This document shows, one piece after another, positions 764-33,434 of a DNA stretch of 64,000 bases. The notes under the pieces were generated by a model that saw nothing but the letters and a program-made list of their open reading frames with translations, was not told the origin of the DNA and did not search any database. The translations under genes were made by a program, and so were the position numbers. Origin of the DNA: a virus. Position 1 is the stretch's first letter, and each line of letters opens with the position of its first letter. Where the stretch lies: positions 1 through 64,000 of IMG/VR virus record IMGVR_UViG_3300027782_000079. The stretch is one strand, 5' to 3'.

Positions 764-3496
764 ATGCCAGTAGGATTTCGCGGTGCAGTTCTCTCAGCCC
801 CCGGTGTGGCTGCATATATCGATGACAGTCAGGCAACGTCTGCTGCATCAGTTACTACCAGAAGCGTGACAGTCGTCGGTGTTGCAGAGCGTGGCATTCC
901 GAATGTGGCGGTTGCGATCAGCAATGCCTCAACTGCCCGCGCTATCTACGGAACCGGATCAACGGCAACTCCTCTTGTTGACGGAATCATTCGCGCACTG
1001 AATGCTGGTGCTGGATTGGTTTATGGAATCCGGACTGGACGAGCAAAGCCCTTTGCTACTTCGTTGATGAAAGACGGTGTAGAGGGCATCTCTGTTGTGA
1101 CGAACGAGTACGGAAAGTTCGCCAAGTCTTGGTACCTGACTGTTGGTGCTTCAACCAATACCATTACACAAAATAGCGCGTCAAGGGGTAAGAAGGTGTC
1201 AATTACCCTTGACAACGGAACGACCTATTCGGTAGACAACATTGGCAAGAGCCTTATAAACATTATTGGAACAACCGCACTTGCAGGACGCTGTGAAGTA
1301 ACTGCAGACAAGATTAATCTACAAAGATCAGCAAATGAAACTGCATCGTTCACAATTACATCCACACAGACATTTCTAGCAGGCGGCGGAACAGGATGTA
1401 CAATCAGTCTAGCAGCCTCAGCGACAACAGTTACTGGTGGAGCCACCCTTGGAACTGGAGCTGGAGGAACTGGATACGCAGTTGGCGACGTTCTAAGTGT
1501 GGGCAGTGGTGGTGGCTCAATCACGGTTACTGGTACAAACGGCCTAACGGGCGCAATTACAACGTTTACCCCGGGAAATGGCGGATCCTACACTGCATCC
1601 GCAGCTAACTTGACAACTGGTGTTCTCTCTGGGGGAATTTCTTCTCCTGTGCAGGTAATTACAGTATCGGCAACTGGAGGAACCTACAGCGGAACAGTCA
1701 ATGGCACGCTACAGGGCGCTCTTGGTGTTGGCCAATACGTTGTTGGAACCGGAATTCCTGCGCTAACAACAATAACTGGCATTAATACTGGAACAAGCAA
1801 GGTCACAGTCACCGGCTCGGGCGGCGCTGGAACATACATTGTCAGTAACACCTTTAGTGGCACCTCTATTGCTGCGAAAGCGTATCCTTCGGCTACGGAC
1901 TTCACTACATATGGATACAATTTTTCCGATTATACCCGACTTGAGACTCTGATCAATGCCATCAACGCTAGCGGAATCTTTGTGGCGCAATTGGCTAGTG
2001 GTGCAAGTCTTGGCGCCTACACGTCTACCATCGATCAAGTTGTAGCACCAGCAGATGCATTTGCGTCCAACGTGGGCGGCTCGTCTGGCACGCCATTCGT
2101 GCTCACAGCCAATGTCAACGCAATGGTTGATGCGATCAACAACGACAATGTGCTTGGCTCTGTGCTTACAGCTACGTTCAAACGAAATGTTTCTGATATT
2201 CCCAACGGAACGTATCTTTTCCAGTATTATATTCCCGCCGTTGTCACTGGATCCATTGCTGGATCGACATTGACTGTTGCCGCAACTTCGTCCGGCAGTC
2301 TTGCAATCGGAAACATTATTTCGGGACAAGGAATCATTCCGGGAACAACCATTACCTCTGGAAGTGGGTCGTCATGGGGGCTTAGCACGTCGCAAGACGC
2401 CAGTGTTACTGCATCGATTACTGCACAGGTTCTGACGGTAACAGCGGTCGGATCGGGAACGCTTCGTATTGGACACACACTTTCCAACAGCGGCTCGACG
2501 GTCACGAGTGGAACGATCATCACGGGATTTGGAACCGGCTCTGGGGGAATTGGCACATATATCCTCAACAATTCGCAAACTGTATCCAGCGGCACAATCA
2601 CTGCCTCTGTCGCAAGCACCACGATCACCGCTACCGGCACGGCTGGAACAATTGCGGATTATGATCCTGCAGTTATTGCATCCGATTGGACCAATGCGTT
2701 TACTGTGGCTCAGAATATTGATTCCTACTTGGTCGTTCCAATGACGGATTCCAGCACCTATCACGCAACGGCGCTCGCGCATGTCAATGCGATGTCAATG
2801 CCAAAGGGAAACAGCGAACGACTGGCGATTCTTGGCGGATCGCTTGGAGAGACGGCTAGCGCAGCGAAAGCTCGGGCTGCGGGTCTTAATGACAAACGCG
2901 CTGTACTGGTCTGGCCGGGAATTCGGGATTATGACGTGTATGGAAACATTCAAGTACTTCCTCCATATTATTTTGCTGCACAATTGGCGGGAATTCTTTC
3001 TTTCCAGAATGATCCTTCAACTCCTTTGACGAACAAGATCATCAACATCAATGGCATTGAAACCATTTCTTCTCCTGCGACCATTGACGATCTGGTTAAT
3101 AACGGAGTATTTACATTCAGAAATGATCCTGCAAGAGGATTTGTAGTTGTTCAATCTTTGACAACATGGACGGGAGATCTGAAGTTTGCTCGCAGGGAAA
3201 TCAGCACAGTTCGCGCTGCTGATGCAACCATGAAGCTGGTTCGCGAAAGAATTTCCCAGTTTGTTGGCTTAAAGAATACAATGCAATTGAAGAGTGAGAT
3301 TCTCAGGTCTGCAATTTCAGGATTGGAAGAGGCAAAGAACTCAGGATACATTGTTGATGATCCTACAAATCCTTCTTTGTATCCTGCATATACCGGAGTA
3401 AATGTACGTGCAGTGGGAGATTCAATATACGTTGATTTCAACATTTCTCCAGCCAAACCAGCCAACTACATTTTGATTACCGCTTACGTTTCCTAA
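764..3496 (+). CDS. Tail sheath protein with large inserted beta modules
   Basis: Contractile tail sheath subunit, 910 residues, against a usual 400-600 or so. The N-terminal region (VGVAERG, then IYGTGS and [13 protein letters not shown]) and the C-terminal 280 residues are sheath-like. The C-terminal part has the ordered set seen in sheaths: a VLVWPG strand, ASIDDL-like and GVFTFRND segments, [23 protein letters not shown] and the final [19 protein letters not shown], which pairs neighbouring subunits. Two Gly/Ser/Thr-rich insertions interrupt the core, at about residues 207-372 (one module A and one module B) and 491-630 (two module B copies). The ATG follows AAGGAG. The tail tube gene is next, the normal order. 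The family call is strong; the insertions are the odd part and probably face outwards. Confidence 0.9.
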
Positions 3497-3521
3497 AAGG
3501 TAGAAAAAGGAGTATTTGACA

Positions 3522-4202
3522 ATGGCCGATTTAAGCAATAGCAGAGTACTTGTAGGCGGAAAAGTTTTAATCAAAATGGACGGAAGAACCGTTGGGTTTG
3601 CAAATGAGGCCGACTGCACTGACAATTATGGCATGCAGCCCATTCACGTTCTTGGGCAGTTGCAAGCGATTGAGTACGTGCCTACAGTGGCGCAACATTC
3701 AATTAGCATGAGTGTCATGGTGTTGCGAGACACCAGCCTTATTGATGCAAATCTGGAGCCTAACGGAGCAGGAAATTTTGGTTTCCTTTCTTCGGCTGAA
3801 AATACGCTTGGTTCTTCATTGGCAAATACATCGAAGAACATGGGATCCGCAACAGAGGCGCAACTAAAAGCCTCTACAAAAGGCTCCACTGGACCGGCGG
3901 GAGCGCTACGAGTTCTTCACGGCAAGACTTTTGATATTCAAATTGTTCAACAATACATGGAAAACAATCTTCCTGTATCAACTCCACTTGTTACCTATAA
4001 AAATTGCTATTTCAACAGTGGGACCGTTCGGGTGGGCGCAAACGCCATTGTTGTTCATCAATGTCAGTTTGTAGCACTTGATAGAGATGGCAACTTGAGC
4101 AACGGAACAGGAGGCGAGGGAGGAACTGCTCCTGATAAGGCGATTCCTACTCCTGTTGTGACAACGTCAGCGTCTGGCAGTGGCAGCAATACGACACGCT
4201 AG
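3522..4202 (+). CDS. Tail tube protein
   Basis: 226 residues. The ATG at 3522 sits 9 bases after AGGAG; a TTG at 3516 in the same frame is only 3 bases from it and is less likely. It lies 25 bases after the sheath stop, the standard sheath-tube order of contractile tails. The start (SNSRVLVGGKVLIKMDGRTVGFANEADCTDNYG) and the later beta-rich region (NCYFNSGTVRVGANAIVVHQCQFVALD) look like the beta-barrel tube fold of T4 gp19-like proteins. The last 30 residues are Gly/Thr/Ser-rich and probably disordered. The family is assigned from position and general beta pattern, not from a signature. Confidence 0.75.
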   Translation: MADLSNSRVLVGGKVLIKMDGRTVGFANEADCTDNYGMQPIHVLGQLQAIEYVPTVAQHSISMSVMVLRDTSLIDANLEPNGAGNFGFLSSAENTLGSSLANTSKNMGSATEAQLKASTKGSTGPAGALRVLHGKTFDIQIVQQYMENNLPVSTPLVTYKNCYFNSGTVRVGANAIVVHQCQFVALDRDGNLSNGTGGEGGTAPDKAIPTPVVTTSASGSGSNTTR

Positions 4203-4260
4203 TACATCCTTGTAATCGATACGTCTTTCTTGTCATTGGTAGAATAGCCGAAACAATTAT

Positions 4261-4294
4261 GAATGACTGTATGGTATGATCCATATAGTCATTC
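4261..4294 (+). promoter_or_regulatory. 14-bp dyad around a -10-like hexamer
   Basis: Arms 4261-4274 and 4281-4294 are complementary with one mismatch that becomes a G-U pair in RNA. The 6-base loop is TATGAT, preceded by TGG, which makes an extended -10 look-alike. No good -35 lies upstream. It sits between the tail tube and chaperone genes, with the chaperone ribosome binding site just downstream. It could be a weak terminator or attenuator (the following T-run is only four bases), an RNA processing hairpin, or an operator over a promoter. Confidence 0.5.
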
Positions 4295-4315
4295 ATCTTT
4301 TGCAAGGAGAAATAC

Positions 4316-5321: not shown

Positions 5322-5333
5322 GGAAAAGTTGGT

Positions 5334-11260: not shown

Positions 11261-11262
11261 CA

Positions 11263-12009: not shown

Positions 12010-12013
12010 TAGC

Positions 12014-14623
12014 ATGCCTATTAATACTACCTCCCTGATTATTGGAACAAATCTGAAATTTGCTACCGTGAGCACACAAAATGCTCCGGGAGATAATCTT
12101 GTTTCAATATACGCTAAATCAGATGGAAAAATGTATTCCAGATATGGATCGTCGGGTGAAGAGACAATCATCGGGGGAAACGCATCGTTGACCATTGGTA
12201 CCGGATTGTTGTCCAGTTCTGGTTCTGCGTACAACAGCGTAGGTGCGACAACCATTTCACTGGCAAACACCGCGGTTACTGCCGGAACGTATTCCAATGC
12301 AACGCTTGTCATTGACGCGCAGGGAAGAATAACCAGCGCAACAGCAAGCACTGCAGGAACTTTTACTACTGGTTCGTTTACCGATGACATTACTATTCAT
12401 GGCGTAACCGTAGGCACTGGGGGTAATGCTACAAGCGGTACTACTCTTGGTGTTTCTGCCGGAAAATATACCGGCATAAATAATACTGCTATTGGGTACA
12501 GATCGCAAGCATTAGCAACTAGTTCCGGAATTAGAAATACTTCTGTTGGAGCAGATACACTTCAAACAGGCGATCCTACTTATGATAATGTTGCTATTGG
12601 ATACGGCGCATTAAACCAATATGGTGGTTCGTATACTACTGGTGTTGGATCGTATGCGTTATATTCAAGTGATTTTAATGCATCATATAATACAGGTCTT
12701 GGATACTCTGCGCTTTCTGCATCAAAAGGCACAGCAAACACCGGCATAGGATCTCAATCTCTTAAAAATATTATTGCAGGAACAAACAGCACAGCGGTAG
12801 GGGCAAACGCACTCTACACCGTTATTTCCGGAGGAACAAATACTGCAGTTGGTTCGAGTGCTTTATATACAACTACGGGATCAGGTAATGTTGCTCTAGG
12901 ATATTTTGCGGGAAAATATGAAACTGGAAGCAATGCATTCTATATAGATAATCAAAACCGCACGGATACTGCGGGAGATAAATCAAAAGCACTGTTGTAT
13001 GGAACATTCAATGCTACGGCCTCAAACCAAACGCTTGCAATCAATGCAGGAACAGTGACCACTATTGGCAACGTCGGCATTGGGACCACTACTCCAGCAA
13101 CGACACTGGAAATAGCCGGAACTAGTTATGCTGGATTGCAAATGAAACGACGAACTGATGATAATGAAATATCAACAGGTTTGTATTTTGATTCTGTGGC
13201 TGTTTATGGTTTAGGAACATTATCTGGCACAACGCTTTCAGTTGGCTCTTTGTCAACATCAAGTACGCTTTCTGTTGGGCAAACAATTACTTGGGCCGGT
13301 ATCACTTCAACTGTAACTATTCTAGAACAACTTACTGGCACAACAGGGCGGCAAGGAACGTATTTCGTAAATAATTCTTCCAGTTTATCAGTATCTAACG
13401 TAACTGCATTTACAGCAATTACTACAAGCGGCAATAATTATACTATTCGAGGCTCTAATGGCGGATTGGATTTTCGTAGTGGATCTGCAGTTAATGTTGC
13501 AGTAGGAACATCAAGAGTTTATTTTTCTTCTGCTGGCAACGTCGGTATTGGAACTATTGCTCCCGATGCAACTCTTGACGTTCGCGGGAAAGCTGCTTTT
13601 TCAGAAATTAGTTCATATTCTGATACGGGAGGTCAGGCACACAGAGCAATTGGTCGCTACGGAGATGATTTTTCTTGGGCACCGCTTGTTTTCCCGTATA
13701 CACCTCGTTACGTCACACTTCCCGAAAGCTACCTTGGTGGCATGGCATATCAGCCATCTAACATCACATTATATGGAAATGATAAAGGAGATAATAGCGC
13801 TAGTGCATTTAATCCAACAACAGGATTAGTGAGCGGAACAAAATACACTATTACCTTTGTGGGAAATACAGCATGGTTTGATATTGGAGCATCGGTCTCT
13901 ACAGTTGGACATATTTTTACATATAACGGATCAACTGTGTATCCTGCTACTGGAAACACTGGTTTATGTAAATTGTCGCCATCATTAAGTGCAAGAATAA
14001 CTATTTTAAATCCATCAGGAAACGTCGGCATTGGGACCACGAGTCCAGATGTAAATTATGGACTAACGGTACAATCCCCTATTTTATCACGTGCCGCAAA
14101 TGCAGCCGTAGCCACTGCAAGTACAGCAGGACATTCATATTTTACCAACGCAACAGTAACAGGATATAACTCATATTATAGTTGGAGATACAATGGAAAC
14201 GACAAGTGGAACCTGTGGTGTGCTAGTGGTTCGACTTTATACCTAACTGACGCTGATGGAGATAACGGCGTATATATGAGCCAGAACCAAACTGCATGGA
14301 GTGCCAATTCTGACTCTCGGATCAAAGACGTAAAGGAACCTATTGCCAACGCTCTTGACAAGGTGAATCAACTTACCGGCGTCAAGTTCACGTGGAAACG
14401 AGATGCGGACAACCCTGATGCCAAGACTCGGGTGGGCTTGATTGCACAGGATGTACTAGTCGTCCTTCCAGAAGCGGTGGATAATGACACTCCAGACCTC
14501 ATCACTGACGAGGAGACAGGAAAAGTCTCAGGAGGACTCGGCGTAAGGTACACCGAACTTGTCCCCTTGTTAGTGAATGCCATCAAGGAACTGGCGCAGC
14601 GGGTGGAGGCTTTGGAAGCATGA
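12014..14623 (+). CDS. Tail fibre with C-terminal S74 self-cleaving chaperone domain
   Basis: 869 residues, ATG after TAGGA. Residues about 150-320 are YadA-head-like repeats (NTAIGYRSQAL, NVAIGYGALNQ, GVGSYALYSS, NTAVGSSALY), common in trimeric fibres. Three copies of a NVGIGTTTP-like element mark domain borders, and a module B lies at about 400-470. The last 110 residues are a peptidase S74 intramolecular chaperone: SDSRIKDVKEPI, TGVKFTWKRD, RVGLIAQDVLVVLPEAV, GVRYTELVPLLVNAIKEL. In the family this domain trimerises the fibre and then cuts itself off at a Ser just before the SDSRIKD motif. The C-terminal domain is a confident call; the receptor is unknown. Confidence 0.9.
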   Translation: MPINTTSLIIGTNLKFATVSTQNAPGDNLVSIYAKSDGKMYSRYGSSGEETIIGGNASLTIGTGLLSSSGSAYNSVGATTISLANTAVTAGTYSNATLVIDAQGRITSATASTAGTFTTGSFTDDITIHGVTVGTGGNATSGTTLGVSAGKYTGINNTAIGYRSQALATSSGIRNTSVGADTLQTGDPTYDNVAIGYGALNQYGGSYTTGVGSYALYSSDFNASYNTGLGYSALSASKGTANTGIGSQSLKNIIAGTNSTAVGANALYTVISGGTNTAVGSSALYTTTGSGNVALGYFAGKYETGSNAFYIDNQNRTDTAGDKSKALLYGTFNATASNQTLAINAGTVTTIGNVGIGTTTPATTLEIAGTSYAGLQMKRRTDDNEISTGLYFDSVAVYGLGTLSGTTLSVGSLSTSSTLSVGQTITWAGITSTVTILEQLTGTTGRQGTYFVNNSSSLSVSNVTAFTAITTSGNNYTIRGSNGGLDFRSGSAVNVAVGTSRVYFSSAGNVGIGTIAPDATLDVRGKAAFSEISSYSDTGGQAHRAIGRYGDDFSWAPLVFPYTPRYVTLPESYLGGMAYQPSNITLYGNDKGDNSASAFNPTTGLVSGTKYTITFVGNTAWFDIGASVSTVGHIFTYNGSTVYPATGNTGLCKLSPSLSARITILNPSGNVGIGTTSPDVNYGLTVQSPILSRAANAAVATASTAGHSYFTNATVTGYNSYYSWRYNGNDKWNLWCASGSTLYLTDADGDNGVYMSQNQTAWSANSDSRIKDVKEPIANALDKVNQLTGVKFTWKRDADNPDAKTRVGLIAQDVLVVLPEAVDNDTPDLITDEETGKVSGGLGVRYTELVPLLVNAIKELAQRVEALEA

Positions 14624-16044: not shown

Positions 16045-16056
16045 AGGATTTTTAAC

Positions 16057-21000: not shown

Positions 21001-21499
21001 CATTAGTGACGGTTTTGATCTTCCTGTTATTACTTCAGTTACTGTAGTATCTGCAGGATCTATTTCGTATCAGTATCAATTGATCGCTGTTGATGCAAAC
21101 GGAAATCGCTCATATCCTTCTTCGGTATTTTACGTTGCGTCATGCTCAGCGCAAATCAATAACATTGTATCTTTCACTCCAGTTGCGTCAATGGCAAGTT
21201 ACGAATTGCTTCGATGGGAAAACACCAGTTGGGGACTTGTGGCAACCATCACCAAGCCCTCAGGAGGCTGGCTTCCTCCGCAAACATACTCTGACACAAC
21301 AACATCTTTGCTTCCTTATTTTTCTTCGTTGCCAATCCGTAAAATCCTTCAGAAATCTACACTATCGCAAAAAATCATGGAAACGCCGGGAGTTGCTTCG
21401 GTGATTGTTTCTCTTCCTAACGTTTCGGGAACAGAGCAGACTGTAGTTGTTCCACCTGTTGGGTACATTCTTGTTCCCGGAACAATCACTCTGAGATAA
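18062..21499 (+). CDS. Baseplate J-like wedge protein with large insertions
   Basis: 1145 residues, against about 300-400 for ordinary gpJ/gp47-like proteins. The N-terminal core (residues 1-105: MAAYLAGHTTLVNDFSQGSIIRSIIESVAQEI) and the C-terminal core from about 829 (TETEEDWRVRFGKVLQDLAKGTSYALETGAQ, then VDLYIHNN and GYKPAGIPVTV) are J-like. About 110-790 is an insertion of two module B, one module A and several fibronectin-III-like domains (SWTAVPNAIGYKVYR, SWQSVSSATGYRVYR). A further Ig-like domain interrupts the C-terminal core just before SKIMETPGV-type residues (about 1010-1100). It should form the inner wedge ring. The start is discussed with the promoter entry upstream; no ribosome binding site fits. 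Confidence 0.85.
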   Translation: MVENISFKLKRQEDIAASMAAYLAGHTTLVNDFSQGSIIRSIIESVAQEIFRQNVSFAQGVVESVRNSVKQAFGLPLQEATKAYGKYTFYRKKLSAPSGLSTTFSSSSITFTGAIAGNTLTVSGSVPTGKLLIGHHISGAADGTQIIAYGSGSTGGLGTYTVSGPTQTVNATTMSAYGKFSSTPTMTLGNIASTGGYLPPSAYYWSVTGVFKHGALSGSGATFSLASGATTVTTAATIASAGAGYTVGDVLIIGGSTGKIRVETVTFSGAITSFSVTSAGNSYASGATGLVATYSLYASPYNFVESPASTPVSATLSGGSTQQVTLSWTAVPNAIGYKVYRADNQQMFNSIYYYVTGTTSFTDTGVVATAAQLNGTISANTSVLTVGTYTGTSNITTNQRLYASGSLIGTITQFGFSAFPKDTPYSGTSTICPSAVMTGVGVTGTYNISDYTANATSSIVLYPAYGKWPTAQMSWGVTAVNITNGVESETLGASVRTGLSGSIANFNWYPVNAGDGASAPTAYNVYRAETNLSLSSPSSISITASSGGSILYESSSFTGTISGTTLTVSGVTGYITAGQIISGGVVSGTKIIKALSATTYEINIAQSVSSTSMSGSLRYYWSVSTLTNSGESVGSSPQTFNQSNVFSQSNRTAFISWQSVSSATGYRVYRSTTSDMSENLCFYDTIYNYFYDNGGFSITTNTYISYKSTGRWTIPFFVGKVTSSLNANSWQIFDPSIIYSSRFWPTQSNAFAVQGSILIPAGVQLNVPGTSKYYTVSSAFTISAFSDSGSTTVQASSSGSLGNTPANTVTSIVSSIYGIASGTNPSAFVTGYDTETEEDWRVRFGKVLQDLAKGTSYALETGAQNARLYDDNGVVYEEVVKSLAYEPSNQVVDLYIHNNVDTGCSAELIAYCQKIINGFIDDQGIKHAGYKPAGIPVTVKKSTVQTQNVFVSVTPNSGYSLDLVSSPITLAIQTYFSSLDISDGFDLPVITSVTVVSAGSISYQYQLIAVDANGNRSYPSSVFYVASCSAQINNIVSFTPVASMASYELLRWENTSWGLVATITKPSGGWLPPQTYSDTTTSLLPYFSSLPIRKILQKSTLSQKIMETPGVASVIVSLPNVSGTEQTVVVPPVGYILVPGTITLR

Positions 21500-21502
21500 G
21501 AG

Positions 21503-24421
21503 ATGTCACTTCCATCAATACTTCCACCGCAACAGACTGTTTTGCAAAGATTATTTGCAGAAATGCCACAGTCTTTTTCCAAAGATCCAGTTTCTACTCC
21601 TGCATTAAATTTTTTTATTAATCCATTGCTGCCAAACAGTTTTTCTTCTTCTGATTACGTCACTATTGTCATTGCTGATGCATTGATGACAATAAGCTCT
21701 TCGGTATCTTATGTGCAATCAGAGACAATTGATCTTAATGTTTTTACCATTTATAATCTTGTAAATTATTTCAATGCAAAATATTATCAATATGGAATTA
21801 TTGCCTCCCTGCCGTTGGGATTATATCCTGATGACGGATTGTTCAAGGCAACTGCTCTTGTCGAAGGAGTCTATGACATCGGAACAACGATTTCAACCAT
21901 TGATCGTTTCACTAGCCTTAATTATGCATTGATGTCAACGTTCTCACTGCTGTTGATTGAAAATCAAAAAAACGCAAGAGCAGCATTGTCGCAAACCGAC
22001 CTTCGATTAACCACGGAGCAATGGGCTGATTTTTGGGGTCATTTGTTAAGCGTTGACCGCACCTCTATTGATATTGGCAATGATATTGTGTACAAGAAAA
22101 GAATCTTGCGCGAGGCAGTGTATCCAAAATCCAACAATGTTGCCTTATCGGATCTTGTGACTTCCATTACCGGAAGAGACTCCTCGGTTGTTGACGGAGG
22201 AAATCCCATGATTCTTGGCGGATCATCAACATCGGTGGGGGTTTTTGATTTTGCGATTCCAAACACACCAAACACAGTCACTTCTTCTACTTTTGCCTCT
22301 TTGGCGCCCTTGACCGCTTCTAACGGATCAGGATTGACCGTCGCTGTTGTAATAAATACAAGTACGGCAAGCGGATTAACGATAAATACTACGTATGCAG
22401 CAGGCACAGGATCAGGAGCAACAATTACTGCTGCTGCATCATCAATAAATTCCTCAGCAACAATTGTCAACGCAGGAACCGGATATTCAGTTGGCGATAT
22501 TCTTCTTGTTTCAACAGGGACGGGAGGGAAAATTTACGTTGCAAGTGTCAATGCTTCAGGAGGAATTGCGTCATTTACCGTTAACGCAGCTGGCTCAAAC
22601 TATTCTTCGGGGACGACGTACGCCACTACTTCCACTGGATATATTGCCGCTATTTCTTTAGGAAACTCAGGAGGAACAGGATACGTAATTGGAGATTTTG
22701 TCACTATTGGCTCAGGAATTGGAGGAACCGCAACCGCTATTGTCACATCAGTGAGTGCCGGAGTGGTTCAGTCTGGCGGATTGTCGCTTGCATACGCAGG
22801 AAGCGGATATTCTACAACCGGAACAGCAACGAACATTGCCACGACCGTGTCAGGAGGCATTATTTTCGCTTCTGTAGCATCTGGAGGAACAAGCGCTGCA
22901 TATTCAGTGGGAGATGTAATCACGATCAATGCAATGGGCGGACGAGCAATTGTCAAGAATGTTTCTTCGGGAAATCCAGCCAACATTACAAGTCCGTATA
23001 CAGGAACTACTGCAACACTTAGTGCGGCAACACTTACTGCCGGACAATACACTGGATCAATTGTTTTGACTGGAGGCACTCCTGCATGGGCATCGTCGGT
23101 AAAAAATGGAAGTGTTTTGCTTACTCCGTCTACTACTCCCACACAAGCCGTAACGGTTACTTCAATTACTCCCGGAAGCGGAGCCACGTTTCGTATTGGA
23201 ACAAATACCACAATAACAACATCTGGAACAAATAATTCAGGAATTGTAGCCTCAGGATCAGGATACACCGTTGGAGATGTATTAACAATTGGATCAGGAT
23301 TAGGAAGAATAAAAGTCTTAACTTTGACTGGAACTGGAATTGCCACGTATACAGTTGATAATGCACCGTCTTCGTCGTATCGTGCAGGAACTGGCGCAAA
23401 ATTTACTCCGGCATTTGGTTCTGGTGCAATTTTTACGGCTGCTTCGGCAGGATCTTTAGCTACCTCAGCAACAATCACAAATGCAGGAACCGGATATAGT
23501 GCAAATGACATATTAAATGTTGGATTACTTGGAGGAAGAATAGTTGTATCATCAACTGATTCAGGAAAAATTACTGGATTTTCCATACATTCTACTGGGT
23601 CTAATTATGTTTCAGGAACAAGTTATTCAACAACTTATTACACAACAACTGTTTCCATTACGTCTGGTGCAGCAATCACGGCATCTGGATCCGGATACAT
23701 GATTGGAGACATTTTGCAGATTGGATCAGGAGGAACTGGATATATTAAGGTAGAATCAATCAATACCACCGGAGGCGTTGTTGATTTTAGCGTTTTTGCT
23801 GCAGGATCTGGGTACACTGCTGGCACTGAATACACCACATCTCAGGGAACTGGTGCAAATTCTTCTGTTCTTTCATCATCATATTACAGCACTGCAGCAA
23901 TCAATGTTTCTTCACCAAGAATATGGACCGGAGGAGCAGTAACTATTTTGCAGTCTGGAATTCAAATGATACCCGGATATTGCGGAACTGGATATTCATC
24001 AACAACTTATTCTACATCCCTTGTGCAATCAAAAATTGCAGACACGACCAGATCGACTCTTACCGTTGGAGAAACACTAACTGGACGAATTGTTTCTGGT
24101 CAACTTTTGGCGGCTAGTGGACTTACGGCAAACACGTACAGGGTTTCAGAGTTTCTCACCGGATCAGGAGGTATTGGAACGTATCTCGTTTCAGGAGGAA
24201 GCACAACGTTAAACACAACAACAATTACCTTTACTTTGCCCACCGTTGGCACCCTCGATAGTGGTCAACTAGGTCCAAGCACGGGCGCTGGATCATTTAT
24301 TGTTTATCTGAAGAAAAACAGTGATGAGACAACTATTCCTCAATCTGTAACATCATTATTGACTACTGTAGTAAATAGATGGAAACCAGCAGGAATAGCA
24401 TTTGTGATACAATCGTATTAA
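21503..24421 (+). CDS. gpI-like tail protein split by beta modules
   Basis: 972 residues, three bases after the J-like stop, so coupled. Residues 1-240 look like the conserved core of the tail protein that follows J in many phages (gpI/DUF2612-like): MTISSSVSYVQSETIDLNVFTIYN, LTTEQWADFWGHLLSVDR, YKKRILREAVYPKSNNVALSDLVTSITG. The last 25 residues (VTSLLTTVVNRWKPAGIAFVIQSY) resemble that family's closing motif. Between them, about 700 residues of Gly/Ser/Thr-rich repeats are inserted, including at least six module A copies (each with a GYxVGDxL core) and one module B. The protein should bridge baseplate and fibres, with the insertion exposed. Confidence 0.7.
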   Translation: MSLPSILPPQQTVLQRLFAEMPQSFSKDPVSTPALNFFINPLLPNSFSSSDYVTIVIADALMTISSSVSYVQSETIDLNVFTIYNLVNYFNAKYYQYGIIASLPLGLYPDDGLFKATALVEGVYDIGTTISTIDRFTSLNYALMSTFSLLLIENQKNARAALSQTDLRLTTEQWADFWGHLLSVDRTSIDIGNDIVYKKRILREAVYPKSNNVALSDLVTSITGRDSSVVDGGNPMILGGSSTSVGVFDFAIPNTPNTVTSSTFASLAPLTASNGSGLTVAVVINTSTASGLTINTTYAAGTGSGATITAAASSINSSATIVNAGTGYSVGDILLVSTGTGGKIYVASVNASGGIASFTVNAAGSNYSSGTTYATTSTGYIAAISLGNSGGTGYVIGDFVTIGSGIGGTATAIVTSVSAGVVQSGGLSLAYAGSGYSTTGTATNIATTVSGGIIFASVASGGTSAAYSVGDVITINAMGGRAIVKNVSSGNPANITSPYTGTTATLSAATLTAGQYTGSIVLTGGTPAWASSVKNGSVLLTPSTTPTQAVTVTSITPGSGATFRIGTNTTITTSGTNNSGIVASGSGYTVGDVLTIGSGLGRIKVLTLTGTGIATYTVDNAPSSSYRAGTGAKFTPAFGSGAIFTAASAGSLATSATITNAGTGYSANDILNVGLLGGRIVVSSTDSGKITGFSIHSTGSNYVSGTSYSTTYYTTTVSITSGAAITASGSGYMIGDILQIGSGGTGYIKVESINTTGGVVDFSVFAAGSGYTAGTEYTTSQGTGANSSVLSSSYYSTAAINVSSPRIWTGGAVTILQSGIQMIPGYCGTGYSSTTYSTSLVQSKIADTTRSTLTVGETLTGRIVSGQLLAASGLTANTYRVSEFLTGSGGIGTYLVSGGSTTLNTTTITFTLPTVGTLDSGQLGPSTGAGSFIVYLKKNSDETTIPQSVTSLLTTVVNRWKPAGIAFVIQSY
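22736..22785 (+). repeat. Fibre module segment shared with 26132-26180
   Basis: This stretch encodes AIVTSVSAGVVQSGGLSL and is nearly identical in DNA to 26132-26180 in the next gene (AIVTSVSSGAVQSGGLSI). The DNA similarity between paralogous modules in different genes suggests fairly recent duplication or gene conversion. Confidence 0.75.
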
Positions 24422-24433
24422 TGGAGCAATAAA

Positions 24434-27400
24434 GTGAAGCCAATTAATCCGCAACTTGGTGCCTCGACATTACGGATCAGCAGAATTGCAGACTTGGATA
24501 TTGAGTCCAAATCTTGGGATTCTGTTATTTTTCAACAAGGGAAAAGCCTTCTTGATTTTGACCTTAATGTCATGCAAAGAGTATTGCGCGAAAACGTCTC
24601 GCAAATTTCTCGCACCATCTACAGTTCGGGATTTTTAACGCAATCTTCTTGCGAAATTGTTGATCTTGCCACTGGCACTGCCGGAACAGGAACAACAGTT
24701 CGACTATATGACTCACGAGTCAATTTCTTTGGCACCATTGCAAGAATTGCCAATCCCAACAACACAAGTGCGTCAGGCAGTTTGTACGTAGATATTCTAT
24801 GCTCCGATTTAACTGGAATAGCAACCGTAAATTCCCAAGCGTTTCTTTGGATTGAATTGTGGTTTCAAGAAGTGGTTCCTGCTTCAACTTCGGAAAAAAT
24901 TGATGGATCATCAACAAGCGTTGAAAACAAATCCGCTTTGGTACCCAAATACGGAGGCGAACTCAACTCTTTGATTCCCAATGAGATGTTCGATACAAAC
25001 TTTGGAGCGGAGACCACAAGAAGAGTGCAAGTTCGATGGAGAATTCGTAAAACAATTGACTACACAAATTTTACTTCTTCAGCAGTAAGCAACACAAGTT
25101 CTGTTCTAAAAGGTTTTGAAACTCCAAACGGACAGGAGTCAATCCCTACTGTATATGCTCAAGGCGGTAGGCAAACATGTTCATTTACCGGATATATCAG
25201 TAACGGTACTTCAGGACAACCGGGTAACGTGTTGACCATTTCCGCAGTTACGTCAGGTAGCTATATTCCAGTTAACAATATAATGACAATCACTGGAAAT
25301 GGAGTTACTCCTGTAACAATTACCGCGTTGATTAGCGGAACCAGTGGAGCAGCAGGATCAACATATTCTTTAAGTGGATCATCGCAAACAGCTGGAACTT
25401 CTGCTGCACAAATTCCCATTAGCGGATGGTTTACTCCAACCAAGACATTTCGAAGAGCTGATCGTCAAATTCCATCAATTGGTCCGGATTTCTATGTTGA
25501 TCGCGATACTCGTGTTTTTATTGCAGGAGACGGGACAGCAGCCGATGCGGTTGCGTTAAACACCGTTGATGGCCGTGTTTATGGAATTCCTATTGGGTTT
25601 TATTATCACAATGGAACAACCGGAGTTTTTACTAATAAACGAGATGTTATTACCACAACAAGCGGTGTCGCTATCGACAACATTCAACCGGCAATCATTG
25701 GAGACACCAATCGCGTTTCCATTGGAGGAGCACCGGGCACAAATGCATACGTGGGTGCCGTTTCTTCAAATACAAATGCATCTCTTGAACTTCAAGCGCA
25801 AGGCTCAGGAGATGTCATTATTGGAGTGAGTGGAAATACCGCCACACAATTGGTGTCAAATTATAGCGGAGCAATTGGAAGCCCGACATATTCTTGGGTT
25901 GGCGATTTGACAACAGGAATATATCGTTCTGGTGCCGGATTGATTGATTTTTCTTCTGCGGGCACCAAAGTTGCCGAACTTGGAACATCATTAGCTTCGT
26001 CATTGACTGTCAATACTACCTACTCGTCAGGAGGTGCTCTTTCCACCATTGCCGTAAATGCTGGAGGGTCTGGATATGCGGTGGGAGACATAGTCACCAT
26101 TGCGGGAGGCTCAACATCCGCTACTGCTATTGTCACATCTGTGAGTAGCGGAGCGGTTCAGTCTGGCGGACTGTCAATTGTTTCGGGAGGTAGTGGGTAT
26201 ACGGCAAGCGGATCAGGAGCAGGCATTGCCACAAGCATTGCACAAAAGTCGCTTGACTTGATCGGATATGGAAAATTCAGCAGCGGTCTTGGTGTCTCAG
26301 GATCACTGGCCCTTACCACGACTTCAGGAAAATTATCCCTTTCTGGTCTTGACGCATCCTCACTTGCCGCCTCTTCGTTGTCATTGACTACCACAGGAGC
26401 AATGAATTTCTCAATTGGCGCTGCCACCAAATGGACGCTTCCTTCCTCTGCAAGTGCGTTAACATTTGGAACATCTACTAACAGTTCTTCTCAATTACTT
26501 ACTCTTAATACATTAAATTCAAGAGTTTCAATTGTAACTACCGGATCTGGGGCAACGTTTACTACAGCGTCTGGTGTCAGCACAATCACCTCAGGAGGAT
26601 CGATTACAGCCGCGGGAACAGGATACGCTGTTGGAGATATTCTCACTGTAGAATCAGGTGCAGGAGGACGCATTTCGGTTACAGCCATCAATACTGCATC
26701 AGGTGCCATCACCGGATTTGCCGTAAACAATGCTGGATCGTCATATTCTCCCAGCACTCTTTACTCTACATCATATTATGTTTCTGTTTCGGCAAACACT
26801 TTGGCCCTTGATGCATCAGGAATCATTAAAGGATCGATATTCTCCGCAACGGGTGATCCTGCAGGAGCGGGAGCAACATTCACTACAGCATCAGGCGCAG
26901 GCGTAAGCACTATCGCTGGTTGTGCCATTGCAAATGCAGGAGCGGGATACAGCGTAGGAGACGTTCTGACTGTTGTCGGTGGTACTACTTCGGGAAAAAT
27001 TGCTGTCTCTACCATTAGTGCATCTGGAGGCATCACCGGATTTACCGTGAATACTGCTGGAGCTGGATATACTCAATCTACTACATGTACAACAACCGCT
27101 GTTGGCACAACAGCGGGAAGATATCTTGGCACAACTTCTACTGCTGGGGCTGTTCCCACTTCGGGATCATTTGTAGCTGGAGACTTTGTTCTAGACACTA
27201 CCGGATTTGTGTATGTCTACACAGGAACTGCATGGAGTTTGGCGGGAACCAATACGGGATTAACCAATTCATGGACAGCTTTGCAAACATTTTCATCTGG
27301 CGTAGATATTACCGGTGGATATGGATTGACGCTCACTGACGGAATAACTGGCTCGACCAAATTATTCGGATCAAATGGAAATCCATTTGCTGGAATGTCC

Positions 27401-29650
27401 GGAGGATTTTCCCCCGGAACATGGAAAAGCATTGCAACTGGAACGTCCGGATCAAATGCCATCGGATTAGCAGTCGACAGCTCAACAAATTACGGAATTT
27501 TGTATGCAAATCTTAACGGCAATAGAAGAGATATCGTTATTGCCCCTACCGGAATGGTGTATCTTGCTGGTGTTGCAGGAAGTTACGGATTAACCGTTGC
27601 TGATGGAACCGGCTATACATCCACTCCACTCACCAAAATTTCTATTTCTGGTAGCGCCATTGCAGCAATCAGAGCAAATGCAGATAGTGGCGGAACATTT
27701 GCTATCACCTCATCATCAACCGGAGGTGCTTCTTCAAAAATTGATTTTTCCGTCGCTGCTGCAGGATCACCCGGAAGCTCATCAGTGAATACAACGACAA
27801 CAATCTTGTCTCTTGATGGCGCAACCAACATTTCCTCATTTGGAGGAAGCATTGTTTTTTCTGGCACATCAAATATATCAACAAACCGAAGCATATCTTC
27901 TGTCAATGCTGGGACAGATGTTGGAAGCACATTTACAATTTCTGCAGGAAATTCAACAGGAAACAAAACAACATCGTTAATATTTCAAACTGCACCAGCT
28001 ACAGCAAGTGGAACCGCTGTTTCTGCCGCAGTAACCGCGTTGACCATTGCAGGTACCGGAGCGGCAACATTTGCTTCCACAATATCTGCCACATCGGCTG
28101 TTTTCAACACTACGGGATCTGAATCGCTATTGGTGGCATCGCTATCTTCTGCAGAAAAATTCCGTATTACCAATGCGGGATATGTTGGAATACTTACTTC
28201 TTCCCCGATTTTGCCTCTGGATGTTGCAGGAGGCATACGAAACGTTGGACCAACGTATCACGTACAATTAACAGCGCCTACGCCCACGGCATCGGCAGTT
28301 AGCACTGCCGGAACAGGAACAACATATTACTACAAAGTTACTGCGCATGATGCTGACGCGAATGAAACTAGTGGATCACCAGTTGCGTCAATAGCAAACG
28401 GATCTCTAGGTGGAACATACAAAAATTCCATTTATTGGTTCGCAGTTCCCGGTGCTCTAACATACAGCTTGTATCGATCAACCGATAATTTTGCCGTTGC
28501 AGCAAACTCTGTTCGCGTATTGCAAAGAACAACTTTGTATACTTCGTCAAGTCCATATACAGATGCAGGCACAGTTCAATTATCAAGCACATTGCCTCCA
28601 TCTATCAACTCCACAAGCATTGTTGGAATTGACGGAAAACTTGGAATTGGGACTGCGAGTCCGTCTTCAAAACTTGATATTGTTGCTCAAGATGCATTGC
28701 AAATTACGGGATATCAGCCATATCTTACTCTTCGAGACAATAATAACTCAAACAAGGGGTTAAGAATTCAAACTGCTTCATCTGAAGCTCTGTTTGCATT
28801 AGACAACGCTACTGCAGGAACATACGTAACTATTGGAAAACTTACATCTACTGGTCTGGATATTTTACAAAATATTTTTGCTGGAGTTGCATCACAAGAG
28901 AAAACAAGCCACAACGGCACATCGTTTGGATTTAATAAATATGTTCATACGACAGGCAACAGTGTTAACACTGCACATGGATACATGATCACTCATGCAG
29001 CAAGAGACACTACTCCGGGAAGTGATTATTTGCAGTTTGGATCATACGGAACGGACGGAGTGGCAACCAAAGCAAATGCACTGGTTATTAATGGATCAGG
29101 ACAAATTGGCATCAGAACTGTTCCTGCAGCAGATTTTCATGTGACCGGAACGGTTGCCGGATCAGTTGCTCCAAAAATCTTTCTTCCCGCTCAAGCGTTT
29201 AATTTACCATTGAGTGCGTTTCCCACTTTTTTTCAACGAGACACTAACACCACAAAATATGAATTGCAATATTCTGGCACTGCCGATCAAGTCGCACACA
29301 CGACTATTGTTGTTCCGTCAAGTTATTCTGGAGGAAATATTACAATAAAATGGTATTGGTATACGGCAACAGCAAACCAAGCTATTGTATGGCAAATCTT
29401 AGCGGCATCAGTAGGCAATGGAGGAAATCCAAATCCCTCCACAACTGCTTTAGGAACTATTGCTTCTACCACAAACACCGCAGGAATGTTGAAGCTTGAA
29501 ACGTATTCATGGACCAGCTCAAGTGGACTCAATATAAACACGGTGTCTGCTGGACAAATTCTCTATTTATCATTGAAAAGATTTTCAACTGATAGTGCTG
29601 ACACTTCTGCAGAAACAATTAATTTTCATTCAATGATTATTGAGTTTTAG
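24434..29650 (+). CDS. Giant tail fibre protein with jelly-roll-like tip
   Basis: 1738 residues, the largest product here. The GTG start is 7 bases after GGAG and 12 bases after the gpI-like stop. Residues 1-220 (DLDIESKSWDSVIFQQGKSLLDFDLNVMQRVLRENV, then IELWFQEVV and RRVQVRWRIRKTIDYTN) look like a baseplate-attachment head. Then come one module B (about 250-330), a DRDTRVFIAGDGTA stretch, several module A copies (nt 26020-26245, 26545-26780, 26862-27100), long beta-helical repeats, an Ig-like domain near residues 1290-1380 and a second GIGTASPSSKLDI element. The last 150 residues (YELQYSGTADQVAHTTIVVP, WYWYTATANQAIVWQIL) look like a jelly-roll receptor-binding tip. No S74 domain is present. 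The fibre role is confident; the receptor is unknown. Confidence 0.8.
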   Translation: MKPINPQLGASTLRISRIADLDIESKSWDSVIFQQGKSLLDFDLNVMQRVLRENVSQISRTIYSSGFLTQSSCEIVDLATGTAGTGTTVRLYDSRVNFFGTIARIANPNNTSASGSLYVDILCSDLTGIATVNSQAFLWIELWFQEVVPASTSEKIDGSSTSVENKSALVPKYGGELNSLIPNEMFDTNFGAETTRRVQVRWRIRKTIDYTNFTSSAVSNTSSVLKGFETPNGQESIPTVYAQGGRQTCSFTGYISNGTSGQPGNVLTISAVTSGSYIPVNNIMTITGNGVTPVTITALISGTSGAAGSTYSLSGSSQTAGTSAAQIPISGWFTPTKTFRRADRQIPSIGPDFYVDRDTRVFIAGDGTAADAVALNTVDGRVYGIPIGFYYHNGTTGVFTNKRDVITTTSGVAIDNIQPAIIGDTNRVSIGGAPGTNAYVGAVSSNTNASLELQAQGSGDVIIGVSGNTATQLVSNYSGAIGSPTYSWVGDLTTGIYRSGAGLIDFSSAGTKVAELGTSLASSLTVNTTYSSGGALSTIAVNAGGSGYAVGDIVTIAGGSTSATAIVTSVSSGAVQSGGLSIVSGGSGYTASGSGAGIATSIAQKSLDLIGYGKFSSGLGVSGSLALTTTSGKLSLSGLDASSLAASSLSLTTTGAMNFSIGAATKWTLPSSASALTFGTSTNSSSQLLTLNTLNSRVSIVTTGSGATFTTASGVSTITSGGSITAAGTGYAVGDILTVESGAGGRISVTAINTASGAITGFAVNNAGSSYSPSTLYSTSYYVSVSANTLALDASGIIKGSIFSATGDPAGAGATFTTASGAGVSTIAGCAIANAGAGYSVGDVLTVVGGTTSGKIAVSTISASGGITGFTVNTAGAGYTQSTTCTTTAVGTTAGRYLGTTSTAGAVPTSGSFVAGDFVLDTTGFVYVYTGTAWSLAGTNTGLTNSWTALQTFSSGVDITGGYGLTLTDGITGSTKLFGSNGNPFAGMSGGFSPGTWKSIATGTSGSNAIGLAVDSSTNYGILYANLNGNRRDIVIAPTGMVYLAGVAGSYGLTVADGTGYTSTPLTKISISGSAIAAIRANADSGGTFAITSSSTGGASSKIDFSVAAAGSPGSSSVNTTTTILSLDGATNISSFGGSIVFSGTSNISTNRSISSVNAGTDVGSTFTISAGNSTGNKTTSLIFQTAPATASGTAVSAAVTALTIAGTGAATFASTISATSAVFNTTGSESLLVASLSSAEKFRITNAGYVGILTSSPILPLDVAGGIRNVGPTYHVQLTAPTPTASAVSTAGTGTTYYYKVTAHDADANETSGSPVASIANGSLGGTYKNSIYWFAVPGALTYSLYRSTDNFAVAANSVRVLQRTTLYTSSSPYTDAGTVQLSSTLPPSINSTSIVGIDGKLGIGTASPSSKLDIVAQDALQITGYQPYLTLRDNNNSNKGLRIQTASSEALFALDNATAGTYVTIGKLTSTGLDILQNIFAGVASQEKTSHNGTSFGFNKYVHTTGNSVNTAHGYMITHAARDTTPGSDYLQFGSYGTDGVATKANALVINGSGQIGIRTVPAADFHVTGTVAGSVAPKIFLPAQAFNLPLSAFPTFFQRDTNTTKYELQYSGTADQVAHTTIVVPSSYSGGNITIKWYWYTATANQAIVWQILAASVGNGGNPNPSTTALGTIASTTNTAGMLKLETYSWTSSSGLNINTVSAGQILYLSLKRFSTDSADTSAETINFHSMIIEF
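26862..27050 (+). repeat. Module A copy, DNA-similar to 32392-32570
   Basis: Encodes GAGATFTTASG...GAGYSVGDVLTV...ASGGITGF. It shares long identical DNA runs with 32392-32570 in the propeller fibre gene: 18 bases at the start and 20 bases over GYSVGDV, one base apart around them. Similarity at the DNA level across genes points to recent copying. Confidence 0.8.
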
Positions 29651-29660
29651 GAGTAAAAAA

Positions 29661-32600
29661 ATGTCATCAGTAACATTTAATGGAACAGTGGTCAGTTATG
29701 GAACATCAACAACCGATCTTGTTGTAAGTTCGGCAAACAGTCCATTTACTGTGGCATCGACAGGAACTGCGCATTATCAAAATGTCACGGTAAATTATGG
29801 ATGTATTCTTAAAATTCCTTCAACTGCTGATTTTAGAGTAAATACTAAATTAAAAAATGATGGCACAATAATATATTCTGCCGCAGGGTCGGGAACGGCA
29901 ACTGGCACAACAGGGGATTACAATGGAGGTGCTGGCGGAGGTGGCGGAGGATATTACGCAGGTAGTGACGGTTCGCGCGGAGGAGTTGGCGGAACCAGTC
30001 CACTTGAAACCTATTTAAGTGGTACCATTACTGACTATACTGCAAAAATTCCTAACGCTAGCGGAACTGGATCTTCAGGAGCAAACGGCAACGGCGGAAC
30101 TGGACCTACCGGAGAAGGTCAATGCGGCGGGTCCACTGGTGGTGGCGGCGGAGGTGCGGGTGGGGGGTCAGTAAAAATTATTGCCAAAGTTTTTGAAAAC
30201 AACGGATTGGTTGACGCAAAAGGACTGAATGGAGGGAATGGAGGAAATCTTGCTTGCAATAGAGGTTCTGGTGGCGGCGGTGGCGGCGGCGGCGGCGGTG
30301 GATCAATCTGGGTTATTGGTGAGCAACTAACGGGATTTGGATCTTTTACTGCTGCTGCAGGATCAGGAGGCTGGGGAGGAAGTGTTTCTGGTGGAGCTGA
30401 TGGAGTTGGTGGCGGACAGGGAGGTGCGGGCGGCAATGGATACATGCGTTTTGATATTGGAACCTACACAGCATTCAGAGGAATTTTTACTCCTTCTTCT
30501 GCTGCTTCATTGAAGATAAATCCTATTCCATATGATCCACCTCCGGCATCATCTTCTAGTGGAACACCAACGTCAGTATATACGTTTGGATCAGATGCAA
30601 CAACAAGCAAAGCTATTCGCATTAATATGCTTAAATCAAATATTGACATAACTGTTCAACCATCTACATCAAATATTACACTTGACACATGTTCTTTTAC
30701 TGGAACAATAACCGGAACAACACTTACTATTTCTTCTGTTCCATATTTTACAGACACTTCTTTATATGGAGTCAATAACACTTGTCTCATTCGAGGAGGA
30801 GAAACACTTTCTGGAGCAGGAGTAATTTCCGGAACATATATTACAGCAGCAATAAATGGAACAGGAACAAATGGAGCAACATATACTGTTAGCAACAATT
30901 ACCTTACCTCAACAGGAGCTGTAACTATTACCGCAGGAGGTCCATATTTTTTTAAAAACATTTTGATTACACAGCCTTATAATTTAATAATAGGAAAAAA
31001 TCAAATTGTATATTGCAAACTATTGCAAGTAAATTATGGAGCATTTTTAGCAAATCAAGTGACAACCGGTGGACCGGGTAACGGCGGAAATGGTGAGATC
31101 TGGAATAACAATGGCAGCAACTTTGGCGGAGGCGGAGGTGCAGGGGGATATGGACAAAACGGCGGCAACGGAGGCAACCCTACTAACGGTAACGGCCTTG
31201 GAGGAACCGCATACAATTCTTTGGCCCTCAATCAAGCAAATATGTATCAAACTTCCTATACCGGAACAGGATACGGAGGATCCAATGGAGGGTCAGGAGG
31301 ATTCGGAGAAAGACACGTCAGGGAATGGTGTCGCGACGAAAATAACAGGGAATATGCATGCCGAACTGACGAGGGAAATCCGGGCGGAGGTGGATCAGGC
31401 AGGGGATTTGTCAAGATATTTGCTTGGGAAACCATATTAAATGGAACATGGAATGCAAAAGGAAGCGATGGAGGAAACGGATCATGGAGAGGAGGTGCGG
31501 GTGGCGGAGGAAGCGGAGGAGGCGTCATGCTCGTCACAGGAACTCTTACTGCTGATTCCACATACGGAAACATTGATATTCGACCCGGAGCTGGAGGCTC
31601 ACCGGGCGAGAGTGGGGGTCAAGCAGGTGGAACTGGCGGAGGAGGAAGAGCGTACATATTTGCAGCAACAAATAATATGTCTTTAGCCTCGGCTGCAAAT
31701 TTTCCGGGAAGTCCTACTAATACCATGGTTTACATGGACACAAACAATCTTGTGACAAAAACAACTGACTCTTCTCCTCCGTCTGGTGCATTTTTCATTT
31801 ACTCAACAAAAAAACCCGGATCCTCTACCGCTACCGTTGTCAATCAATCTACTTTTAGCAATATTCGATATGGAGATATAGTAAATTTTAGGCATTATCT
31901 GAATGAATATCCGTATTCGTATACCGACAAACTATATATCAACGGGGTTTTACAAAATGAACCACTTATGACCTATGTAAATAAAACGGTAACTGGCGTG
32001 TCAAATCCTTGGGCTGTTACCTGTGATCCAACTGGCCGGTTTGTGTTTGTTGCGAATTATGGGGCCTCCAATATTGTGTCCTACACAATCGATGCCAGTA
32101 CCGGAGTATTGCCCTCGGTGGGCACACCAGTGGCAGCGTCAACTCCTCAGGATATTGCCTGTGATCCAACGGGGAAATTCTTGTATGCGACAAATTATAA
32201 TGCATACACTGTTCAATCTTACACAATTCATCAAACTACCGGAGCATTGACCTTGGTGGGAACAACGGCAGCGGGGCGTCAGCCTAAAAATATTGCAAGC
32301 CATCCCACGGGAAAATTTGTGTATGTATCGAATTATAGTTCAGGCAGCGTTCAGAGGTACACAGTCAATCAAAGCACCGGAGTATTGACATCAGGAGCGG
32401 GAGCAACATTTACTATTGCATCAGGCGCAAGCACTCTCACTTCTGGGGGTACCATTACAACTGCAGGAGCCGGATACAGCGTAGGAGACGTTTTGAAGGT
32501 TGACTTGACTGCTTACCTAGGAGGAAAAATTACTGTCGCTAGCATTAACGCATCTGGAGGCATTGTTACATTCTCCGTTGTGGCCGGATCTGCCGGATCT

Positions 32601-33434
32601 GGATATGCTGCAGGATCTACGTACGGAACCACTTCCCAAGAGTGGGCAACGCTAATACCGGTAGGGGGCGAGCCTACTAGTATTGCCTGCGATCCCACGG
32701 GTAAATTTGCCTATGTGTGGAATAGTTCTGCAAGAACCATTCATGCGTACACAATTAATGCAATTACCGGAGTATTGACCTCGGTGGGAACACCAATAGA
32801 TATTAGCGCCACATTAACGGAATACCCGTCAGTTAATGATATGGTCTGTGATCCAACGGGTAGATTTTTGTATGTGGCGGCGACATACAATGTTCTGGTC
32901 TACGCGATCAATGCAAGTACCGGCGCATTAATTTTAGTGCAAACATCGGCAGCGATAAATGCCATTGGAACCTACACAGCATTAAAGAGTATTGCCTGTG
33001 ATCCAACGGGGAAGTTCGTATATGCGACGACTATTGGTCCAAGCACCGTTATGTCCTTCGCAATCAATTCTTACACCGGAGAATTGACTTCTTTGGTGCA
33101 AACAGTGACAACTCAATCGCCAAATAATAGTGATATGGCCTGTGATCCAACGGGGAAATTTGTGTATGTGATCGGTAGTGGCACTCCACAATCCGTAGAA
33201 ACTTATAGTCTTAATAATAAGAATTTTACAATTGGAGAGTATTTTGTTACTAATCCTGCTACTGAATGGGAAACAGCAGGCATGGTAATGAATTGGGGAG
33301 AAATTACCATTAATAAATTTGGACGATATTCTCTTACATTTAACGCAACCGATTATTGGGGCATCGGTGGAGATAATCCTGAGGGTCCATTTGAAGGATC
33401 GGTCATTCCCATAGCATTTCCAATATCGTTCTAA
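29661..33434 (+). CDS. Gly-rich fibre protein with a seven-bladed lactonase-like propeller
   Basis: 1257 residues from the ATG at 29661 (AGGAG at 29649-29653, 7-base spacing); an in-frame upstream start would overlap the previous gene. Residues about 90-260 and 470-650 are Gly-rich runs (GGGGGGY, GGGGGGGGGGGS) reminiscent of polyglycine-helix adhesins. A module B lies at about 345-425. Residues about 775-1185 hold seven repeats of the type (C/S)-x-P-T-G-(K/R)-F-x-Y-V, the blade signature of lactonase-type beta-propellers. A module A (nt 32392-32640) is inserted between blades 3 and 4. The last 65 residues are beta-rich. Lactonase catalytic residues could not be identified, so a binding role (host glycan or protein) is more likely than catalysis. 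Confidence 0.8.
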   Translation: MSSVTFNGTVVSYGTSTTDLVVSSANSPFTVASTGTAHYQNVTVNYGCILKIPSTADFRVNTKLKNDGTIIYSAAGSGTATGTTGDYNGGAGGGGGGYYAGSDGSRGGVGGTSPLETYLSGTITDYTAKIPNASGTGSSGANGNGGTGPTGEGQCGGSTGGGGGGAGGGSVKIIAKVFENNGLVDAKGLNGGNGGNLACNRGSGGGGGGGGGGGSIWVIGEQLTGFGSFTAAAGSGGWGGSVSGGADGVGGGQGGAGGNGYMRFDIGTYTAFRGIFTPSSAASLKINPIPYDPPPASSSSGTPTSVYTFGSDATTSKAIRINMLKSNIDITVQPSTSNITLDTCSFTGTITGTTLTISSVPYFTDTSLYGVNNTCLIRGGETLSGAGVISGTYITAAINGTGTNGATYTVSNNYLTSTGAVTITAGGPYFFKNILITQPYNLIIGKNQIVYCKLLQVNYGAFLANQVTTGGPGNGGNGEIWNNNGSNFGGGGGAGGYGQNGGNGGNPTNGNGLGGTAYNSLALNQANMYQTSYTGTGYGGSNGGSGGFGERHVREWCRDENNREYACRTDEGNPGGGGSGRGFVKIFAWETILNGTWNAKGSDGGNGSWRGGAGGGGSGGGVMLVTGTLTADSTYGNIDIRPGAGGSPGESGGQAGGTGGGGRAYIFAATNNMSLASAANFPGSPTNTMVYMDTNNLVTKTTDSSPPSGAFFIYSTKKPGSSTATVVNQSTFSNIRYGDIVNFRHYLNEYPYSYTDKLYINGVLQNEPLMTYVNKTVTGVSNPWAVTCDPTGRFVFVANYGASNIVSYTIDASTGVLPSVGTPVAASTPQDIACDPTGKFLYATNYNAYTVQSYTIHQTTGALTLVGTTAAGRQPKNIASHPTGKFVYVSNYSSGSVQRYTVNQSTGVLTSGAGATFTIASGASTLTSGGTITTAGAGYSVGDVLKVDLTAYLGGKITVASINASGGIVTFSVVAGSAGSGYAAGSTYGTTSQEWATLIPVGGEPTSIACDPTGKFAYVWNSSARTIHAYTINAITGVLTSVGTPIDISATLTEYPSVNDMVCDPTGRFLYVAATYNVLVYAINASTGALILVQTSAAINAIGTYTALKSIACDPTGKFVYATTIGPSTVMSFAINSYTGELTSLVQTVTTQSPNNSDMACDPTGKFVYVIGSGTPQSVETYSLNNKNFTIGEYFVTNPATEWETAGMVMNWGEITINKFGRYSLTFNATDYWGIGGDNPEGPFEGSVIPIAFPISF
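32392..32570 (+). repeat. Module A copy inserted in the beta-propeller
   Basis: Encodes GAGATFTIASG...GAGYSVGDVLKV...ASGGIVTF. It lies between the third and fourth propeller blades, and propeller spacing is regular on both sides. It is closely related in DNA to 26862-27050 in the upstream fibre gene. Confidence 0.8.

Follow-up and report, generated by a model that had tools for sequence, protein, structure and literature searches.

Two recurrent beta-domain modules in six virion genes of a contractile-tailed phage, one a possible distant relative of T4 gp18 domain I

Two families of small beta-rich domains, module A and module B, recur in six exterior virion genes of a contractile-tailed phage, module A in five (sheath, J, gpI-like, giant fibre and propeller fibre) and module B in these and the S74 fibre. 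The evidence tips modestly towards reading them as removable, outward-facing add-on domains that recombination inserts, copies and removes and that probably serve weak multivalent adhesion. The window analysed is bases 1-64000 of the 68,776-base virus record IMGVR_UViG_3300027782_000079. Its contractile-tail cluster encodes a sheath, a tube, a tape measure with a lysozyme-like domain, a hub, a spike, an S74 fibre, a sheath initiator with LysM, a baseplate J protein, a gpI-like protein, a giant fibre and a fibre with a lactonase-type propeller. The carriers are as follows, the gpI-like protein being named by gene position because it has no convincing family match.

764..3496, + strand: contractile tail sheath, carrier gene (PF04984, phrog_279)
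12014..14623, + strand: S74-chaperone fibre, carrier gene (PF13884)
18062..21499, + strand: baseplate J-like protein, carrier gene (PF04865)
21503..24421, + strand: gpI-like baseplate protein, carrier gene (972 aa versus 403 aa in relative G2)
24434..29650, + strand: giant fibre, carrier gene
29640..33434, + strand: fibre with lactonase-type beta-propeller, carrier gene (PF10282)

A profile search of the whole 68,776-base record found no copy of either module outside these six exterior genes, and the tube, tape measure, hub and spike are free of both. Surface decoration, one of the purposes suggested in a sequence-only reading of the same DNA, is supported by this confinement to exterior parts. 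Other features of the region were seen in passing. The tape measure-like protein (5334-9725) contains a long stretch of glycines, and its C-terminal domain is of the VgrG3 type (PF21277); the propeller fibre contains glycine-rich stretches (29922-31650); and, read by eye, a metallophosphoesterase-like protein with DWHLG, GD and GHTH-like motifs lies in the tail region at 33949-35073. A bifunctional primase/polymerase (PF09250) with AAA_25 occupies 43803-45947.

The census was built on leave-one-gene-out profile HMMs, in which the model was rebuilt without the copies of the gene under test and searched against that gene and 200 local shuffles of it. Nine module A copies scored 31-63 bits against a shuffle maximum of about 6, and eight module B copies scored 12.8-31 bits against a maximum of about 4-7. 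Weaker A scores were obtained at 26054 (11.5 bits), 22889 (10.6 bits, a half copy) and 22661 (5.2 bits), the copies at 26054 and 22661 constituting one subtype. Searches of the whole record with profiles A3 (47 sequences) and A4 (76 sequences) returned 11 A and eight B copies: the A copies lie at E<1e-9 with the broad 47-sequence profile, and the B copies, the same eight, at E<=2.1e-9. The copies are listed below with the evidence for each.

1382..1621, + strand: module A, tail sheath (44.6 bits with the broad profile; 31.2 bits leave-one-gene-out)
1670..1879, + strand: possible module B, tail sheath, weak (0.8 bits leave-one-gene-out; 14.2 with the broad profile; absent from the whole-record hits)
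2237..2410, + strand: module B, tail sheath (whole-record profile; empty site in relative G2)
2399..2605, + strand: module B, tail sheath, in tandem with the 2237..2410 copy (71.1 bits; leave-one-gene-out)
13208..13408, + strand: module B, S74-chaperone fibre (leave-one-gene-out and whole-record profile)
18389..18589, + strand: module B, baseplate J (whole-record profile; shares its site with relative G3)
18704..18940, + strand: module A, baseplate J (leave-one-gene-out and whole-record profile)
19727..19906, + strand: module B, J, interrupting a stretch that otherwise aligns (site occupied in G3, empty in G2)
22400..22636, + strand: module A copy 1, gpI-like protein (leave-one-gene-out and whole-record profile)
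22613..22846, + strand: module A copy 2 (subtype), gpI-like protein (34.5 bits; near copy at 26056-26232)
22889..23023, + strand: partial module A, gpI-like protein (10.6 bits leave-one-gene-out, half of the model)
23162..23407, + strand: module A copy 3, gpI-like protein (leave-one-gene-out and whole-record profile)
23414..23641, + strand: module A copy 4, gpI-like protein (leave-one-gene-out and whole-record profile)
23636..23848, + strand: module A copy 5, gpI-like protein (leave-one-gene-out and whole-record profile)
24035..24232, + strand: module B, gpI-like protein (leave-one-gene-out and whole-record profile)
25181..25405, + strand: module B, giant fibre (whole-record profile; site occupied in G3, empty in G2)
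25982..26218, + strand: module A (subtype), giant fibre (whole-record profile)
26537..26776, + strand: module A, giant fibre (whole-record profile; structure predicted)
26849..27103, + strand: module A, giant fibre (whole-record profile; DNA closest to the propeller copy)
30693..30926, + strand: module B, propeller fibre (leave-one-gene-out and whole-record profile)
32388..32636, + strand: module A, among the beta-propeller blade repeats (whole-record profile; blade-repeat spacing 138, 138, 390, 159, 150, 144)

The leave-one-gene-out scores confirm the earlier proposal of two modules across six virion genes, with most copies well above locally shuffled proteins. Its positions for about ten A copies were good, the number being 11 by the broad profile; the stretch given as one copy at 23419-23850 is module A in two tandem copies, and that at 22664-22970 is one copy and part of the half copy. 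Eight of its nine B copies are firm. The ninth, placed at 1654-1880, is not independently significant, and module B at 1670-1879 is plausible by eye only because of its 0.8-bit leave-one-out score. A degenerate B-like stretch in J (19175-19444) likewise scores below significance, at 2.0 bits leave-one-out. That the likeness of the copies merely reflects richness in G, T and S has a nearly negligible probability. The modules are indeed G/T/S/A-rich, but local shuffles of the same proteins fall far below the observed scores, so that chance or composition is rejected as the source of the repeats, and the profile of A does not match that of B (hhalign probability 0.4%) though both families are G/T/S-rich. 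A single family comprising A and B was rejected on this lack of a mutual match.

AlphaFold2 models, computed from alignments of window and IMG/VR copies, bear out the beta-rich character proposed for the isolated modules: both are confident all-beta domains, A with a pLDDT of 93.9, six strands and no helix and B with a pLDDT of 93.8. A resemblance of module A to domain I of the T4 sheath protein gp18 goes beyond the earlier reading. When the A profile was searched against all PDB sequences, only tail sheath proteins matched at E<0.1, namely T4 gp18 and close relatives over approximately residues 92-155 (E 5.6e-6 to 3.7e-5) and another sheath (5e-4); single copies of the modules had no match among PDB sequences. 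Comparison by hhalign with a family alignment of gp18 domain I, the stretch being taken from ten T4-like phages, gave a probability of 95.4% (E 1.8e-8, 48 columns), the controls being B against gp18 domain I (0.1%) and the comparison of A with B given above. The top five matches of a gp18-domain-I HMM among 818 six-frame window frames were all A copies, the top one scoring 13.8 bits where shuffles reached 6.1 and the fifth (6.0) lying within the shuffle range. A Foldseek search of predicted viral proteins with the A model placed the tail sheath of phage phiM9 on top (TM 0.84, rmsd 1.7, 32% identity); uncharacterised, J-tip, baseplate, neck and structural proteins ranked next. With the same model, Foldseek missed gp18 in the PDB and yielded nothing usable; the case for kinship with gp18 therefore consists of the sequence profiles and the predicted phiM9 sheath.

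In T4, the sheath domain that protrudes and is exposed to solvent is gp18 domain I (residues 98-188; PMC3004832). Like module A, this domain (PF22639; PDB 3fo8, 3foa, 3j2m) is a beta-domain within a sheath protein, outermost in T4, and the two share the profile match of about 48 columns, including a G-x-x-Y-x-V-G-D core, which spans about half of the T4 domain. Unlike it, module A is a free module spread over five genes, and one protein can carry as many as five copies. Module A also scores 14.7-16.6 bits against PF22639, below the Pfam gathering score of 27, its model lacks a helix, and its insertion point in the sheath, as read by eye, follows the domain II entry segment instead of preceding it as T4 domain I does. 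These profile matches suggest a distant kinship between module A and this outermost T4 sheath domain. A further idea, offered tentatively and at less than even confidence, is that the T4 domain is a fixed instance of a roaming family of virion domains, and that phages dress their sheath, baseplate, neck, head and fibres in shared, exchangeable add-ons whose number and mix they tune as a virion-wide adhesion coat. Elsewhere, carriers of module A belong to structural, neck, baseplate J, head decoration, sheath and fibre families, and some other viruses encode large structural proteins with tandem arrays of several A units.

Module B has no PDB relative by profile search and no model in Pfam or NCBIfam. 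Its best PDB fold match by Foldseek is a 124-residue protein of Arthrobacter phage Bridgette (entry 8eci; probability 0.98, TM 0.65), which differs from B in giving an E-value of 0.13, 23% identity and no sequence-profile match, and the likeness may be one of fold only. The profiles of PHROG 21413 and 38233 contain module B and match most carriers; unlike the module, each clusters whole proteins, one PHROG being of unknown function and the other annotated as tail fibre. In IMG/VR, module B was found by a single DNA pattern because an alignment-based scan lacked conserved columns; the set is therefore biased towards canonical copies, and the figures refer to the matches listed. Carriers outside this phage include minor head, capsid, head decoration, adaptor, neck, sheath, baseplate wedge and fibre proteins, and a scan of bacterial genomes found 41 loci in Proteobacteria, Bacteroidota and others. 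To judge from these sequence matches, module B is a common domain, as yet without a name, of unrelated virion proteins in many phages and prophages. The motifs of the modules are kept across very distant phages, and some module carriers also bear CBM_5_12 or lectin-like domains. When single modules were searched by tblastn in named phages, nothing matched, an outcome probably due to masking of the modules by the low-complexity filter. Phage Ig-like domains are similarly accessory beta-domains of unrelated virion proteins and are exchanged between phages (PMC9230969, PMC10684548); unlike them, A and B match no Ig family in Pfam or NCBIfam, and no Ig-like fold appears among the PDB fold matches listed for either module.

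Gain and loss of modules affect the same sites across related phages. Relatives that keep the cluster are the pairs G1/G2 (62% identity in the sheath core) and G3/G4 (64%), and by profile counts this phage has 11 A and eight B copies, G3/G4 one A and ten B, and G1/G2 two of each. Divergent A-like repeats in the sheath and gpI of G3 are visible by eye at sub-threshold level. Near residue 556 of J and near residue 250 of the giant fibre, a module B is present here and in G3 and the site is empty in G2, and in the sheath initiator a B is present in G3 and absent here and in G2. These occupied and empty sites lie in otherwise colinear proteins. The first gene of the window (1-330) is truncated at the record start; its G3 homologue (reverse strand, 286 aa) has two B copies upstream of the shared part. 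A search of IMG/VR with the J C-terminus found no relatives.

The largest difference concerns gpI, which has 972 residues here versus 403 in G2, the module array making up the difference (approximately 526-670 extra residues here) and modules accounting for 46% of gene length. This array of five A and one B, together with the three A copies of the giant fibre, is what would be expected if the modules merely extended stalks or fibres so that their tips reach further. The single copies in the beta-propeller, J and the sheath, however, lengthen no stalk, which makes spacing an improbable explanation. In the propeller fibre the blade spacing rises from 138 to 390 where module A sits, then returns to about 150.

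The two modules have different histories: module A has been amplified inside the lineage, and module B shows no sign of amplification. Nearest neighbours were used in place of maximum-likelihood trees because the modules are only 45-70 residues long. At the amino acid level the nearest neighbour of 10 of the 11 A copies is another A of the same genome, in eight cases from a different gene. None of nine B copies has a nearest neighbour in its own genome, each being closest to other phages, in a sample drawn by motif that may favour outside neighbours. The giant-fibre A at 26862-27081 and the propeller A at 32392-32620 share 73% DNA identity over 233 columns, with stretches at 85-90%. From the same-genome neighbours and this cross-gene DNA similarity it follows that A has been copied between genes within the lineage; together with the occupied and empty sites in relatives, they uphold the earlier suggestion of shuffling between genes. 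In Sphingopyxis flava, three fibre genes on three contigs have unrelated beginnings and share a 1.07-kb end cassette with module B (approximately 5689-6757; 88-92% DNA identity), and the same kind of exchange thus occurs elsewhere. A DNA mobile element or shared border sequence was considered and rejected: the borders hold only what the coded motif requires, with the exception of a short ACATGT preceding two B copies. Codon choice and GC of the modules are like those of the carrier genes.

In most pairs of A and of B copies dN is below dS, and the module sequence has therefore been under constraint. If loops simply tolerated the domains, which then spread by recombination without benefit, gain and loss among relatives would be expected, and the closest and most recent A pair does have dN close to dS (0.32/0.34). 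Such neutral cargo is nevertheless very improbable, given that dN lies well below dS in older pairs (0.38/1.23 and 0.44/2.45) and that the motifs persist in very distant phages.

The favoured explanation is that the modules are small, self-contained beta-domains that would be inserted in frame at tolerated positions of exterior virion proteins, with recombination gaining, copying and losing them while the core of the carrier remains undisturbed. Their outward exposure we infer from the carriers, the T4 domain and the tolerance of the carrier protein. As removable surface modules they may, in the manner proposed for Ig-like domains, engage cell-surface or environmental glycans through many weak, multivalent contacts. 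A role in adhesion or stability has been put forward for extra domains of sheath proteins (PMC9230969), and phage tail proteins are described in general as exchanging domains (PMC10684548). Weak multivalent adhesion is favoured because the modules sit on a wide range of exterior parts and differ in number from one relative to another, a pattern that suits an add-on more than a fixed contact in assembly. The modules display no obvious conserved aromatic surface for binding. Counting against the add-on reading are the PDB Foldseek search without gp18, the half-domain gp18 match, the differing position in the sheath and the dN/dS of the closest A pair; the exterior rule is itself strained by a few B carriers that match head maturation protease families.

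Cementing is a serious rival, though an unlikely one. The modules would then steady the virion through contacts between neighbouring subunits of sheath, baseplate and fibres and bind nothing outside. Head decoration proteins, which are often cementing, are among the carriers. Stabilisation is one of the roles proposed for extra sheath domains, with domain II contacts in phage 812 cited (PMC9230969). The number and sites of the modules nevertheless vary strongly among lineages with well-conserved cores, which is hard to reconcile with a fixed assembly interface, and the fibre copies sit away from the packed sheath.

If the add-on explanation is true, it would provide an evolutionary setting for a well-known yet functionally obscure part of the T4 tail. 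The two profile families now defined can annotate many anonymous virion proteins, and the relatives, in which a given site may be filled or empty, serve as natural controls for the role of the modules.
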